64,000 nucleotides of DNA, from the NCBI RefSeq assembly GCF_014695585.1, contig NZ_JACJON010000067.1:248001-312000 (forward strand). Reading direction: 5' to 3'. This DNA is from Microcoleus sp. FACHB-831 (GTDB lineage: Bacteria; Cyanobacteriota; Cyanobacteriia; Cyanobacteriales; FACHB-T130). Positions 1 through 4,980 of the stretch are shown one piece after another. Made by a program: the position numbers and the translations under genes. The notes under the pieces are model-generated. The model made no database searches. It was not told the DNA's origin and worked only from the letters and a program-made list of their open reading frames with translations. Numbering within the stretch: the first letter of the stretch is position 1; every line of letters starts with the position of its first letter.

Positions 1-441
1 ACTTGCACCAGTTAACAGAGATTTTGTGCCGCTAGGTTGAACTGTAGTGCAACGATTTGGGCGTTTGATATTGTGGCGATCGCAGTAATTCCAAACCACG
101 CGATTCACAATATCTTTCCAGCGAGTTAGATATTCTTCTTCTTGCCGCTTAAACTCTAATCCCTGTGCAGTTTCAGGGCGTCCTTCTGTCCACCAGCGCA
201 ACCAATCTACCCCAAAGGCATTTACAAAAAAGTCAAATAAGCCTGTGAAGGATACTCCTACTATTGGATCTAGTTCGCGTGATTTACGGTATCGCTCTTC
301 AACAAATTTGTGGTTAAGAAGTGCGGCAACAGATAATGCTCCCGCCGTAAAAGCTTCCTCCTGTTCTTTGTAGTTAAGCGGATCGATTTGATTGAGGTGT
401 ACCTCTGACAAATTACAGTGGAAGTTAGAGCCTATAATTTC
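1..441 (-). CDS. nrdJ: Adenosylcobalamin-dependent ribonucleotide reductase, exon 2 (partial, continues off left edge)
   Basis: This is the downstream exon of the class II ribonucleotide reductase gene whose first exon lies at 694-1917. Read on the minus strand from 441 it gives EIIGSNFHCNLSEVHLN and stays open for 147 codons to the window edge, ending in QPSGTKSLLTGAS. Joined to exon 1 it restores the NPCG|EIIG motif and the second conserved Cys (FHC). In the family, one of these cysteines carries the thiyl radical and the other is in the redox pair. The C-terminal part, including the end of the protein, is outside the window. Confidence 0.9.
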
Positions 442-693
442 CAAATTTGTTACCCTAAAGGCTTTTTATCCTTTAGTTCTACAGGTTTTATTTTCCCTGT
501 AGTTCGGCGTACATTTTCACTTACTTTTGTTGTAAATGCCCCGCACTCTTGCCAGGATTATATTCTTCCTTTAGAAGGTTCACCTGGTACGCTCTACGGT
601 GTTAAAGGCTTTTTATTTCCTTTAGTTACCTCGGAGTTAACATCTCAGTTTTCTCCGAATTTGCGGGGTTTTTAACGTGAGGCAAAATTACTT
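442..693 (-). ncRNA. Group I intron interrupting nrdJ
   Basis: A 252-nt insertion separates codons NPCG and EIIG, and its frame meets a stop after one codon, so it must be removed at RNA level. The 5' exon end GTGTGGT (700-694) pairs with GCCTCAC (683-677), placing a U.G wobble at the splice site: a classic P1. AATTTT (689-684), next to the guide, pairs with the first exon-2 bases GAAATT (441-436): P10. The intron ends in G. Other stems: P2-like 658-653/636-631, P3-like 592-588/511-507, P4-like CCAGG 587-583/CCTGG 556-552, P8-like 502-496/485-479 and P9-like 476-470/461-455. I could not assign P7 by eye. No homing endonuclease is encoded. Group II ends (GUGYG...AY) are absent. Confidence 0.82.
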
Positions 694-1917
694 ACCACAC
701 GGATTTAAACCAACACGTTGCAGCCGATGCTCTATCTCATCAGCAGGCAAGTTTGGATAGTTTTTATGGAACCAATCTGTGGCATTACCTTGTTCGTAAG
801 CTTTGATAAAGTCAGTCTTTACTTCAAGTGTTGTTAGCAGGTCAGAGTTAGCTCTGGCTAATGCTTCTCCAGCCCATTGAATCGCACCTTCGCCCGAATA
901 GTACTGTTTTTTTACAGCCTCAATACATTCTGACAATTCAGGCTTATGGTGAAAGACGCGGGTATGGTTTGCCATGCGAAGTGCATCTCGCTCTGGATCG
1001 ATACGCCAGTTCCCCTGAGCATCTTGTTCCCAGAGGTTGCCTTTAGCATTAGCAAATGGCTCATCGTTGCTGTCTCCCTGTCTCATGCCAGCTGACCGCC
1101 TCACGTTGCCAGCAACCACGACAACTGCTGCTTCATCAATTAATAGACAGCATTCTACTGAATTTAATTGCCGTCCTACAGCTTTATTTAGAATTGACGC
1201 GCAACGTTGATAAAGTTCGGGTAATTTAATAGGATTGGCAACCCCACCAAAGCCTTTTAGAGGTTCTCCAGCTGGACGGATATTCTTCAGATCGATGACA
1301 ACCTGAACTTCGCCTGCAAATTGCTCATCCGTAGATAATTCCAGCAAAGTTTGATAAGACTTTACCCAGCCTTGGCGGCTATCTCCCACATATATCGTGG
1401 CTTGATGGCTCTCGATTTTGACTTCTGTCAGTTCGCAGCGCAACTGAGCAGGGGTAGTGCCAATGTCCCCCTGCATTGTCACGACGAGACGATTACGAAT
1501 GGGCGGGAGCTGATTAATATATTTTGGTTCGAGAACCGCTCCCGTGCCACAGCCCATCATTGCCAAATCCATCATTAGGCCAAATGCACGCCAATCTAGT
1601 ACATTTGTACTTGTACAGTTGTACGCGCCTGAAAAGTTCTGTGGCTTCTCAATCCACTCGCTACCACCAACCCAAAGCCAGCGACCAGAGGGTAGGGCTT
1701 TTATCTGACGCTGCATACGGTCTATGATGGCTGCTTCTTGGGGGAGTAGCTCTCCGAGTTGGATTAAGCCTCGGAGCGTGCGATCGCACACTTCTCCCCA
1801 CGCCTCGCGTCCTTTTTCCCTGCGACGGCTGTAAGTTCTGAAAAATACGGGATTGGCAGCGGGTGCAGTTTGCGGAAACTCGCTACTCTGGCTTACGCGC
1901 TCAAGCTCTCGAACCAT
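694..1917 (-). CDS. nrdJ: Adenosylcobalamin-dependent ribonucleoside-triphosphate reductase, exon 1
   Basis: This exon encodes the first 408 residues of a monomeric class II ribonucleotide reductase, which makes deoxyribonucleotides with a cobalamin-generated thiyl radical and needs no oxygen. Seen: an N-terminal region with FFRTYSRR, the YNCTSTN motif (about residue 119) with the first redox Cys, GNVRRSAGMRQGD, and the NPCG motif at the exon end. The family normally continues NPCGE, which is found at 441. Read without splicing the ORF stops two codons after NPCG at 690-688, as NPCGK. The ATG at 1917 is the only good start. Confidence 0.93.
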
Positions 1918-2342
1918 AGGTCAAGTCTTTTTTATCTAGGAACCGATCGTCAGACTCAATACTATAAGCGATCGCAGATATAGGGTCAAAGCTTGCAAAA
2001 ATACCCCTTTTGCCCTATATGTAGTTGACGGGTAAGCTGAGTGTGTGCGATCGCGTGTGTAAGAATTTGAACCGCCAAGACGCCCCAGCGAAGCGAAGGC
2101 GCTAGCCGTTAGAACGCCAAGGAAGAGAGGAAAAGAGCGATCGCGCGAAGGCTGTTGAGGGGAGGAGGCGCTCGGGTATTAAAGAATCAAACCGCCCCGC
2201 GCCCCGAAGCAGAGGAAGAGCTGAGCAATGGTGTATTAGATTATCCGTAGCCCGTAGCTGGGTGCAAGTCAGTTCGGCGCGTCCTGAGATATTTTAAAAG
2301 AACGGCCTAATGCTGACTTTAGGCTTCACAGGAGACAAGAGC
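1918..2342. other. Intergenic region with dispersed repeat
   Basis: No gene seen between the divergent nrdJ and ATPase genes. Around 2070-2170 lies a GC-rich mosaic (CGCCAAGACGCC, AGCGAAGCGAAGGCGC, AACGCCAAGGAAGAG) of the kind dispersed in large cyanobacterial genomes; related pieces occur at about 24556-24605 and 48905-48990. Several HIP1 sites are present. Confidence 0.6.
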
Positions 2343-3950
2343 GTGCTGCGCGAATACCAGCTTACTAATTTCAAAGCCTTTGCTGGGCCAGAAACAATTC
2401 CGATTCGTCCAATTACGCTCATCTATGGGCCAAACTCTTCTGGCAAGAGTTCCATTTTGCAATCGCTGTTGCTGCTTAAGCAAACTCTTCAAGAAGCCGA
2501 AAACCCAGAAACTCTTTTGCTACCTAAAGGCAATTTAGTTAACCTCGGTGGCTATCGTGAATTTATCCATCGCCACGATGTCAGCAAGCCATTCTCGTTC
2601 AAGGTACTTTTGGATGTAGACAAGCACGAAACACCAAATCCATTTGAAAACCTTGTCAGGGACAAGCTGATTCAGACTGCGCTTTTAGGTTTGCAAGTCA
2701 CTTTCACTTACGACCAAAATACATCAAATGTCGTTTTCTCCTCAGTAGATGTATTTATTGGGGACGATTCCTCCCCAGCGGTTATCTATAAACCTGAAAA
2801 ACAAGACAGTTTCGGAGTGGAACTAAGTAGTTATCAGGAGACTGTCCTCAAGCTAGACAACATAAACTATGCCTACAGCTTTTGGAAAGCTTGGTTTGAT
2901 ACTTACGGAGCAAAACTTGCCAAAAACGCACTTGCCGAGGTAAACAGTCATGTGCGTCAGAAAAATATTCGAGCTGCACAACTGCAACAACCTCAACACA
3001 AACAACGGTTGGAGAAACTTCAGAAGGAGATTGAGCAATTAATTCGGTTGCAGAAGCGCTTCGATAACTACACATTCGATGCCGCTATAGAAGACTTTTC
3101 AAAAGCGAATCTACATTCATTGATGCTGTGTCGGAACTTCCTGCCCGTCACGTCAAATGGTCTGCCTGGAGAGGAGTTTTCTAACCCAGAAATTCGCTAT
3201 TTATTTCAGGAAAACAGACGCCATTGGCTACCAGACATTTTGGGTGTCACGCTTCAGGCTTGCTCTACGTTTAGACGTTTCCTAGAGAATACAATTTATA
3301 TTGGCCCTTTGCGAGACTACCCTGAACGACTTTACATCTTGAGCGGTAACTCAAGCCAACAGGTAGGAAAATCTGGAAAGATGCTATCAGATATCCTGTT
3401 TAGAAATTCTGAACTTCTGAAACAGGTGAACGACCAACTAGAAGGCTTCGGTTTGGGATATGAACTCAAAGTTGCCGCCTACACTAACTACGAAACATCG
3501 GAACTGAGTGACGTTTTTGCCTTGCGCTTAGTTGATAAATACACTGGGGTGAATGTTAGCCTTCTGGATGTTGGATTTGGTATTAGCCAAGTGCTGCCAA
3601 TCGTTGTTCAGAGTATGCTTTCACGCAACCAAACTCTGCTGATTGAACAGCCAGAAATTCATATTCACCCACGCCTGCAAGCTGAACTCGGTTCGCTACT
3701 GGCAGAGTGCATCAAACCTCCTTTCGAGAATCAGTTTATTATCGAAACTCACAGCGAACATTTGATGTTGCGCCTTCAGAAGTTAATTCGTAAGGGAGAG
3801 TTAAAGCCAGAAGATGTGTCGGTTATTTATGTAGCTCGTGACAATGACGGATCGAAGTGCTTACACTTAAGGTTAGATGAAGAAGGCGACTTTATTGATG
3901 AGTGGCCAGACGGGTTCTTTGAAGAAGACTTTAACGAGATTTTCCACTAA
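2343..3950 (+). CDS. AAA family ATPase, DUF3696-type (OLD/SMC-like)
   Basis: ABC-fold AAA ATPase of about 535 residues. Seen: LREYQLTNFKAF opening, Walker A GPNSSGKSS (about residue 29), a coiled segment in the middle (QQPQHKQRLEKLQKEIEQL), LLDVGFGISQVLP as signature-like stretch, Walker B LLIEQPEIHIHP (about 432), and the H-switch THSEH (about 469). The tail LDEEGDFIDEWPDGFFEEDF matches the DUF3696 end. I chose GTG 2343, preceded by GGAG at an 8-nt spacing; ATG 2310 adds 11 residues. The next gene begins 1 nt after the stop, indicating one transcript. ATPases of this type partner with nucleases in several anti-phage systems; that role here is inference. Confidence 0.82.
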   Translation: MLREYQLTNFKAFAGPETIPIRPITLIYGPNSSGKSSILQSLLLLKQTLQEAENPETLLLPKGNLVNLGGYREFIHRHDVSKPFSFKVLLDVDKHETPNPFENLVRDKLIQTALLGLQVTFTYDQNTSNVVFSSVDVFIGDDSSPAVIYKPEKQDSFGVELSSYQETVLKLDNINYAYSFWKAWFDTYGAKLAKNALAEVNSHVRQKNIRAAQLQQPQHKQRLEKLQKEIEQLIRLQKRFDNYTFDAAIEDFSKANLHSLMLCRNFLPVTSNGLPGEEFSNPEIRYLFQENRRHWLPDILGVTLQACSTFRRFLENTIYIGPLRDYPERLYILSGNSSQQVGKSGKMLSDILFRNSELLKQVNDQLEGFGLGYELKVAAYTNYETSELSDVFALRLVDKYTGVNVSLLDVGFGISQVLPIVVQSMLSRNQTLLIEQPEIHIHPRLQAELGSLLAECIKPPFENQFIIETHSEHLMLRLQKLIRKGELKPEDVSVIYVARDNDGSKCLHLRLDEEGDFIDEWPDGFFEEDFNEIFH

Positions 3951-3951
3951 T

Positions 3952-4980
3952 ATGCTGGTGCGAACTATCCTGCTGCCTTCTGTATTTACTTCCATTCCTG
4001 AAGACCAAGCTAGTCTTTATAATAGCGTCATCTCACTACTGCAAAACTTAGAAAAAAATGGTGTAATTCTGATTGATGATAATAACTTTATCAAGACTGC
4101 TATGTCTGAAGGCGTTGACAAGTGGCCGTTGAAGTTCAGAAAGCCCGCATTGGTACTTCTTGAACAACTAAAGAAGAAAAATCGTTTAGTTGAATTGTCG
4201 CTAAATAGTAAAATCGAGGCAAATTGTATAGCCGCACCATGCCATAACTGTATTAGGATGGCGAAAGTCTACTTACCCCCTGCTATTATTGCTAGTGATA
4301 AGTGTAACCAATGTGCTAATAAACAGCTAACATCAGTTTCAACGGTTGATGTTGTTGATGTTGCTGAATATTCTATATCTAAATTCTTTAATGTACACCT
4401 CAATCAGCGCGATCGCCTTATTCTTAACAGTGAATGGAAACAGGACAAATTCGAGCAAGAAATTCTGATTCCTCTGTTTAGAGATGCGAAACATATAAAA
4501 ATATACGACAGATGGATCGGGCGGTCGTTTTCAAACCCTCCTCATATAGGACAGATTGGAGATAACTACAAACTTACCTTAGAATGGATTCTTGATGTCT
4601 TTATCCGCAAGTCACGCTTGGGAATAAAAGGCATCTTTGAGGTATGCAGTGGCTTGGACACTCTTAGTATATCCAAAGCTAAAATACCAATACCAATTTT
4701 TGTGGCATCAATCCGTCAGTTTGAGTCTGATATAAGAACAGCATATAGTTTTCCTAACTTTAAAGTAACTATTAAGAAAGAAACCCAAAGAGATCAAATG
4801 CTTCACCAGCGGTATTTGATTACGAATCAGGTAGCGGTATCTATAGATCGCGGCTTTGACTTGCTTTTGGACAAAAGAACGAGTCCGTATCCACGCCGCG
4901 TGCGGGACGTAACGATCGCTTATTGTTCAGAACCGGGTAAAATCGAAAAAGCTGTGCGATCGCTCCCCGATTTACCCTAA
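3952..4980 (+). CDS. PLD-like (MIT_C-like) putative nuclease, partner of the upstream ATPase
   Basis: A 342-residue protein starting at ATG 3952, one base after the ATPase stop. An in-frame extension back to 3877 overlaps the ATPase and is unlikely. Seen: an N-terminal helical part, two CxxC pairs (CHNC, CNQC; about residues 93-125) that look like a zinc ribbon, then a C-terminal region with IYDRWIG, GIFEVCSGL and HQRYLITNQVAVSIDRGFD. The last resembles phospholipase-D-like domains of the MIT C-terminal type, with H-x-R in place of HxK. Base composition is more AT-rich than the flanking genes. The enzymatic role is inferred from motif pattern only. It could instead be an uncharacterised effector without nuclease activity. 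Confidence 0.6.
   Translation: MLVRTILLPSVFTSIPEDQASLYNSVISLLQNLEKNGVILIDDNNFIKTAMSEGVDKWPLKFRKPALVLLEQLKKKNRLVELSLNSKIEANCIAAPCHNCIRMAKVYLPPAIIASDKCNQCANKQLTSVSTVDVVDVAEYSISKFFNVHLNQRDRLILNSEWKQDKFEQEILIPLFRDAKHIKIYDRWIGRSFSNPPHIGQIGDNYKLTLEWILDVFIRKSRLGIKGIFEVCSGLDTLSISKAKIPIPIFVASIRQFESDIRTAYSFPNFKVTIKKETQRDQMLHQRYLITNQVAVSIDRGFDLLLDKRTSPYPRRVRDVTIAYCSEPGKIEKAVRSLPDLP

Follow-up and report, generated by a model that had tools for sequence, protein, structure and literature searches.

A short group I intron, predicted to self-splice, in the nrdJ gene of Microcoleus sp. FACHB-831, and its family in cyanobacteria

The window analysed here is a stretch of 64,000 nt that forms part of one contig (C67) of the Microcoleus sp. 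FACHB-831 genome (G000; 6.4 Mb, 99.4% complete). At its beginning lies nrdJ, of which codons 408 and 409 are separated by an insert on the minus strand (Table 1). Exon 1 closes with the codons AAT CCG TGT GGT (to 694) and exon 2 opens with GAA ATT ATA GGC (from 441), extending past the window edge to L002:1872. The two exons match directly consecutive parts of TIGR02505 (adenosylcobalamin-dependent ribonucleotide reductase), and both these profile matches and the coordinates agree with the sequence-only reading made earlier of this DNA, in which a 252-nt insertion was placed at 442-693, splitting NPCG|EIIG. In insert-free relatives the protein runs uninterrupted over the junction, with 65-77% identity among the matches listed that cover the full query. 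The Cys of NPCG and the Cys of the downstream FHC were aligned to C408 and C419 of 1L1L, at a place where the alignment is weak (17.6 bits), as expected from the earlier claim that the site lies between two active-site cysteines. We take 1L1L to be the Lactobacillus enzyme, and these residues are presumably its thiyl cysteine and a redox cysteine.

One copy of nrdJ was detected in the genome and neither PF02867 nor PF13597 gave a match there, so NrdJ appears to be the sole ribonucleotide reductase of the cell. Unspliced translation reads NPCG-K-stop, an early end that the sequence-only reading had rightly pointed out. The full protein would depend on splicing, and the earlier reading had claimed as much for dNTP synthesis.

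Adjoining nrdJ, and divergent from it, is an ATPase-like ORF (2310..3950, plus strand) in which a Walker A-like GPNSSGKSS was recognised by eye. It is overlapped by an ORF at 3877..4980; to call the two a defence pair is a guess.

Table 1. Features of the interrupted nrdJ gene, listed in the order of transcription (pairing and both-side changes refer to alignment A1, see text)
Feature	Position in window	Strand	Observation
nrdJ exon 1	694..1917	-	408 codons, NPCG at end; TIGR02505 positions 17-378
P1 exon strand CGUGUGGU	694..701	-	last base is the splice-site U; 7 pairs, 100% paired, plus one U.U mismatch
Group I intron, 252 nt	442..693	-	covariation, P7, P1, P10, fold; R1 253.5 bits (window intron itself among the R1 training sequences)
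In-frame UAA, intron codon 2	688..690	-	stop at codon 2 or 3 in 106/106 introns
P10 intron strand UAAUUUU	684..690	-	pairs with exon 2 at 441..435; 7 pairs in the window copy
P1 internal guide GCCUCACG	676..683	-	first G in U.G wobble; U.G in 21/21
P3 5' strand	662..668	-	99.3% of cells paired; both-side changes in 5/7 pairs
P4 5' strand	653..658	-	alignment A1 and fold
P5 hairpin (650..648 with 641..639)	639..650	-	relatives show A-U, G-U, G-C and C-G versions
P4 3' strand	631..636	-	alignment A1 and fold
P6 (630..628 with 600..598) and P6a (624..619 with 608..603)	598..630	-	98.1% paired; both-side changes 6/10
P7 5' strand GAGCGUA	588..594	-	guanosine-site G is G592; 100% paired; both-side changes 3/6
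P7.1 (587..583 with 556..552), between P7 and P3	552..587	-	92.4% paired; both-side changes 5/5
P3 3' strand	539..545	-	alignment A1
P8 hairpin (538..532 with 524..518)	518..538	-	97.9% paired; both-side changes 7/7
P7 3' strand UACGCC	506..511	-	C507 is the partner of G592; G-C in 21/21
P9 hairpin	479..502	-	100% paired; both-side changes 5/7
P9.1 hairpin	455..476	-	100% paired; both-side changes 3/7
Terminal (omega) G	442..442	-	invariant in A1, 21/21
nrdJ exon 2, portion within window	1..441	-	begins EIIG; TIGR02505 positions 379-526

The anatomy of the insert was worked out on an alignment of 21 family introns (A1, the window intron included), for which the structure was written by hand; one further locus (L056) was left out, its trimmed core being identical to that of L057. 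The intron RNA begins with AAGUAA and ends with UUUG. A P1 with a U.G wobble, a P10 and a terminal G had all been proposed, and all are present. P1 is nearly invariant across A1 because guide and exon are both nearly constant. P10 fails to pair in some rows; across the 21 rows its two parts are 88.1% and 95.2% paired, and two of its pairs are changed on both sides. Among the other stems proposed, P3, P4, P8 and P9 are confirmed by covariation and fold, but P2 has to be abandoned, since no such stem was found and the gap between P1 and P3 measures 7 nt. The inner hairpin of P7.1 is seen in the minimum-energy fold only. P7.1 with this hairpin, P9 and P9.1 are seen, and no separate P7.2, P9.0 or P9.2 was identified in A1 or the fold. 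The term 'ORF-less', likewise used earlier, holds for the sense strand, where the intron contains no ORF of at least 60 codons; on the other strand the intron is overlapped by an antisense frame of 85 codons (418..675, plus). The window intron has no endonuclease ORF and, at 252 nt with no sense ORF of at least 60 codons, no IS component.

The pairing scheme is carried by covariation. In A1, 98.0% of the 1507 paired cells pair (83.4% in shuffles) and 40 of 72 pairs are changed on both sides. The covariation score is 0.434 against 0.151 in shuffles, a comparison in which the kinship of the aligned introns favours the score, and none of 500 shuffles equals A1 on any measure. When the pairing partners are slid out of register, pairing drops to 35-44%. 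The pseudoknotted P3/P7 core (P3, P4-P5, P6 and P7) is 98-100% paired, with both-side changes. The sequence-only reading had let its case stand or fall with a P7 and its guanosine-binding site; this helix, for which it had given no position, was found (594..588 with 511..506), it pairs in 21/21 rows, and its guanosine-site G-C (592-507) is invariant. The P7 strand before P7.1 was chosen for its full pairing and covariation; a second candidate, the CAAGAGU that adjoins the P3 3' strand on its 5' side, was rejected by eye since it would put an A.G mismatch into the window copy. Three P7 pairs vary, namely 262-312 (C-G or G-C), 265-310 (C-G or A-U) and 266-309 (G-C or C-G), in what we take to be Tetrahymena numbering. 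Beyond A1, the P7 and length counts cover the 87 family introns of which both ends could be mapped; in 19 others, which make up the total of 106, the 3' end was not located. The P7 motif could be read in 85 of the 87. All three variable positions are paired in 84 of the 85 and one is not paired at every variable position; the motif was not found in the remaining two, L098 and L103. The minimum-energy fold of the window intron (-77.6 kcal/mol, z -5.39; 0/200 shuffles as low) yields P3, P4, P5, P6, P6a, P7.1, P8, P9 and P9.1 unaided. P7, the guanosine-site G-C, the U.G pair, the terminal G and the covariation together uphold the reading as a group I intron.

The Rfam group I model, which the sequence-only reading had named as a check, did not return the intron at its threshold. 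No match was obtained when the whole window was scanned at Rfam's own cut-offs. On a short stretch RF00028 gave 18.9 bits (E 0.015; the cut-off of 50 serves curation and does not define group I introns), and in seven family loci tried it gave no match at E<=1. Controls of known type fared similarly: the Pf-WMP3 intron scored 31.9 bits and T4 nrdB 35.7 bits, both below 50, and T4 td (control stretch 136-146 kb) was not matched at E<=0.1. A score below 50 therefore does not exclude a group IA intron, the window copy scoring lower still, and Rfam was set aside as arbiter.

In IA introns, P7.1 sits between P7 and P3. The window intron has its P7.1 in this place and lacks P2, and by this predicted layout it is of subgroup IA. 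Passages of PMC3428280 and PMC4227781 give P7.1/P7.2 as a mark of IA2 introns. The closest likeness in layout is to the IA2 intron in the DNA polymerase gene of cyanophage Pf-WMP3, for which the part of PMC3428280 consulted reports splicing in vivo and in vitro: both lack P2, and both have P7.1, an exon U paired with G, a terminal G and P10. Unlike in Pf-WMP3, a separate P7.2 was not identified in the window intron. The T4 td and nrdB introns are annotated as 1A in their record. The Pf-WMP3 and T4 td/nrdB stretches gave no significant match to the family model R1 (best 9.1 bits, E 0.1), and the tie to characterised IA introns is therefore one of layout only.

The distribution of the family was followed from the host gene. 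With a protein spanning the junction as query, 325 of 388 genomes of the class, themselves a selection from a larger group, gave a match; 117 of these, G000 among them, were re-searched with split matches listed, and 30 loci were then fetched. Many of the 30 are interrupted at residue 408/409, where the tblastn alignment breaks off in most of the relatives fetched, and their inserts are mutually alignable except that of L047. R1 matched 36 of the 388 genomes under strict filters, by which weak matches are lost. In 25 genomes the match lies at nrdJ, in six others it lies elsewhere (E <1e-8), G217 having both kinds, and five matches are weak (E 2e-4 to 7e-4). In the named genome collection a core DNA pattern had 82 matches, all cyanobacterial by title and all with the NPCG codons followed by the family guide; nrdJ was confirmed by tblastn in 80/80 tested, the pattern having been built from nrdJ family introns and hence being biased towards nrdJ. 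Hosts include Nostoc, Dolichospermum, Anabaena, Microcoleus, Kamptonema, Tychonema, Laspinema and Pseudanabaena. The rarity claimed for group I introns in bacterial protein genes thus does not extend to the NPCG site of cyanobacterial nrdJ, where they recur (82 pattern matches; 25/388 genomes). The 87 mapped introns comprise 64 of up to 400 nt, 8 of 401-900 nt and 15 longer ones; in three the length is below 252 nt.

Group I introns in cyanobacterial reductase genes are already published (Meng 2007 and Fujisawa 2010, as cited in passages of PMC3984707, PMC1995217 and PMC12702839), and the window intron adds a copy to that kind. According to the part of PMC2795772 consulted, more than 100 group I introns had been curated in the reductase entries of RNRdb by 2009. 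The Nostoc punctiforme RIR intron (Meng et al. 2007), reported in passages of PMC1995217 and PMC12702839 as likewise a group I intron in a cyanobacterial reductase gene, holds an IS element according to the title of the 2007 paper, whereas the window intron is minimal; the two are likened here by description. N. punctiforme NIES-2108 (L122) carries the family of the window intron at the same nrdJ site. Among the papers listed, no title concerned this intron family across cyanobacterial nrdJ.

A further family trait is the in-frame stop at intron codon 2 or 3, found in all 106 introns and all 26 distinct leaders; the 106 are not independent, several loci being probably the same record twice (79 of the 87 mapped introns are distinct sequences). 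L047, a different intron, and L058, in which exon 1 is cut off, were left out of this count. The leaders before the guide measure 7 to 13 nt and use UAA, UGA or UAG, and in the other two frames a stop falls within four codons in 1/26 and 0/26 leaders. Shared ancestry and P10 pairing account for part of this conservation, but the leaders vary in length and stop codon. A passage of PMC3073962 describes such a stop in most group I introns as keeping ribosomes out of the intron, and PMC4227781 takes, in the part consulted, much the same view. The stop is therefore a known group I trait, and its strict conservation here fits the idea of ribosome exclusion. Divided by reading frame, the lengths of the 87 mapped introns fall into near-equal classes (30/28/29), which is what removal of the RNA before translation would give.

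Two of the long introns (L049 and L056) were examined for their coding content. In both, an endonuclease-like ORF extends as far as the end of P9.1; its ATG lies inside P8 in L049, and the frame listed for L056 opens further upstream. NUMOD3 was matched with E 0.0003 and 0.0056, respectively, above its cut-off in L049 only, Phage_endo_I was matched below cut-off, and a PD...EIK motif was recognised by eye. The idea that the long inserts are IS transposases was unsupported in these two ORFs. When one long-insert ORF was compared with phages by tblastn, the sole match was Idiomarinaceae phage 1N2-2 (E 1e-4, in two records). Given the endonuclease-like ORFs that extend from P8 in these long relatives, the window element probably belongs to a mobile lineage.

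Relatives were also found outside cyanobacterial nrdJ. By blastn the intron matched 53 of 50,697 phage records at E<=1 (best E 2e-20), six of them over at least 80% of its length and the Bacillus phage locus described below among them. Of 72,556 plasmid records, 6 were matched at E<=0.01; these are from Clostridioides, Bacillus and Paenibacillus. R1 matched four viral contigs (107.6-133.4 bits), a tape-measure locus of Staphylococcus phage 6ec (80 bits) and the RecD-like helicase locus of Bacillus phage vB_BsuS_PJN02 (169.9 bits, the top non-nrdJ score among the loci tested). In the Bacillus phage the helicase is annotated in two pieces with a 'mobile intron protein' and an 'endonuclease' between them. 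These two phage introns are homologous to the window intron by R1, but they differ in host gene, in guide and in their adjoining annotated endonuclease ORFs. Nodularia phage matches were not used (26-28 nt, E 0.8; no R1 match in L193). IStrons (a group IA2 intron plus an IS) likewise bear P7.1, and many begin with a stop codon; they differ in their IS component and, according to passages of PMC4227781, are found in Firmicutes and Fusobacteria. In L095 (G092:C49:80729-80943) a weaker R1 match (61.6 bits) overlaps an RtcB-like frame at its end and is followed by a LAGLIDADG-like ORF, both frames judged by eye; the family may have relatives in this other bacterial gene.

Intron identity between the window copy and nine Microcoleus/Kamptonema/Tychonema-type copies (L107, L113, L164, L117, L121, L125, L177, L162, L139) is 88-90%, at 66-75% identity of the 400-nt exon flanks. 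This high intron identity relative to the flanks suggests lateral movement between the window lineage and its Microcoleus/Kamptonema relatives. Alternatively, the intron could have been inherited with nrdJ, its high identity reflecting constraint on the ribozyme; this is possible but the less probable account. Over 44 named loci (946 non-independent pairs; introns >320 nt and short flanks left out) intron and exon identity are indeed correlated (r 0.62), and some other pairs at comparable exon identity reach 93 and 95% intron identity, the maxima of the 70-74% and 74-78% exon bands. However, the 388 other pairs in these bands average 80%, with 95th percentiles near 85%, and the window intron shares 89-90% with five copies. 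Four of the nine close copies fall below 70% exon identity, some through other inserts in their flanks (as in L107, where this lowers the value), and lie outside the band comparison.

Taken together, the insert is with high confidence an IA-type group I intron, predicted to self-splice and devoid of an endonuclease gene, which resides in the only reductase gene detected and would be spliced as follows. Ribosomes would translate exon 1 and halt at the UAA just within the intron, leaving the ribozyme core free to fold. A guanosine bound at G592-C507 in P7 would attack the bond that follows the U.G-paired U of exon 1. P10 would then bring exon 2 into line, and the 3' OH of exon 1 would attack after the terminal G, joining NPCG to EIIG. 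By this scheme the RNA should be catalytic in vitro as well as in vivo.

Splicing of the window copy is a prediction from sequence, and immediately ahead of exon 2 there is a readable TTG start. The ribozyme might accordingly have decayed, leaving nrdJ as a pseudogene or as two separate polypeptides. This is very improbable: every core helix, including P7 and P1, is intact in the window copy, the two exons have open frames with TIGR02505 matches, and the genome holds no other ribonucleotide reductase that could be found. An in-frame insertion handled at the protein level, as intein or extra peptide, is favoured by the divisibility of 252 by three and by the inteins that other cyanobacteria have ahead of the catalytic Cys (L183, L184, L186), but it is refuted, barring readthrough, by the in-frame UAA at intron codon 2, and both the lengths of the relatives in all three frames and the RNA covariation leave it a negligible probability.

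The intron family shares its surroundings with other elements. L047 (G163:C1, 796..563 minus) carries a 234-nt group I intron at the identical nrdJ bond, which RF00028 matches with 90.5 bits; its R1 score (38.8 bits, E 2.6e-11) is far below that of family members, and it is therefore a distant relative and not a copy. The intein-like inserts of L183, L184 and L186, recognised by eye, start at the catalytic Cys (NP|CGE), 6 nt upstream of the intron site, and that of L185 (also by eye) lies at the next Cys (FH|C), eight codons downstream. In L044 and L045 an intein-like insert comes after the intron. In G068 (L194, L195) nrdJ is apparently split into an N-terminal part of 400 codons and an intein-plus-C-terminal part, and a similar pattern is seen in G040, G054, G090 and G101; in G068 and G040 the pieces share a contig but are widely separated, and in G054, G090 and G101 they are on different contigs. 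L061 (G155) and L062 (G012) show a frame change of nrdJ near residues 370-382, with no large insert; a frameshift, a sequencing error and recoding are candidate causes. The Microcoleus genome itself contains three more group I introns (C75:18812-19090, C54:77015-77218 and C18:87041-87344; L004-L006), which ARAGORN, with long introns allowed, places in tRNA-Asn(gtt), tRNA-Leu(taa) and tRNA-Arg(cct).

The active-site motif of NrdJ is thus a landing site for unrelated self-removing elements: inteins, a different group I intron and the family intron. The family offers a testable system, a strongly covarying group I intron at one codon boundary of cyanobacterial nrdJ, which lies under the Rfam cut-off in the copies tried and is related to phage introns. 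Its short and ORF-bearing forms allow the study of endonuclease gain and loss and of lateral transfer, and the count of stops provides a clean natural test of the known in-frame stop trait. A bolder idea, to which we give little credence, is that splicing is a control point of dNTP supply, NrdJ being made only if the ribosome halts at the stop and guanosine/GTP is sufficient. If true, an essential nucleotide-making enzyme would be gated by an RNA whose cofactor is a purine nucleotide, and the stop, kept in every intron counted although the leaders vary and each of the three stop codons occurs, would belong to the gate.
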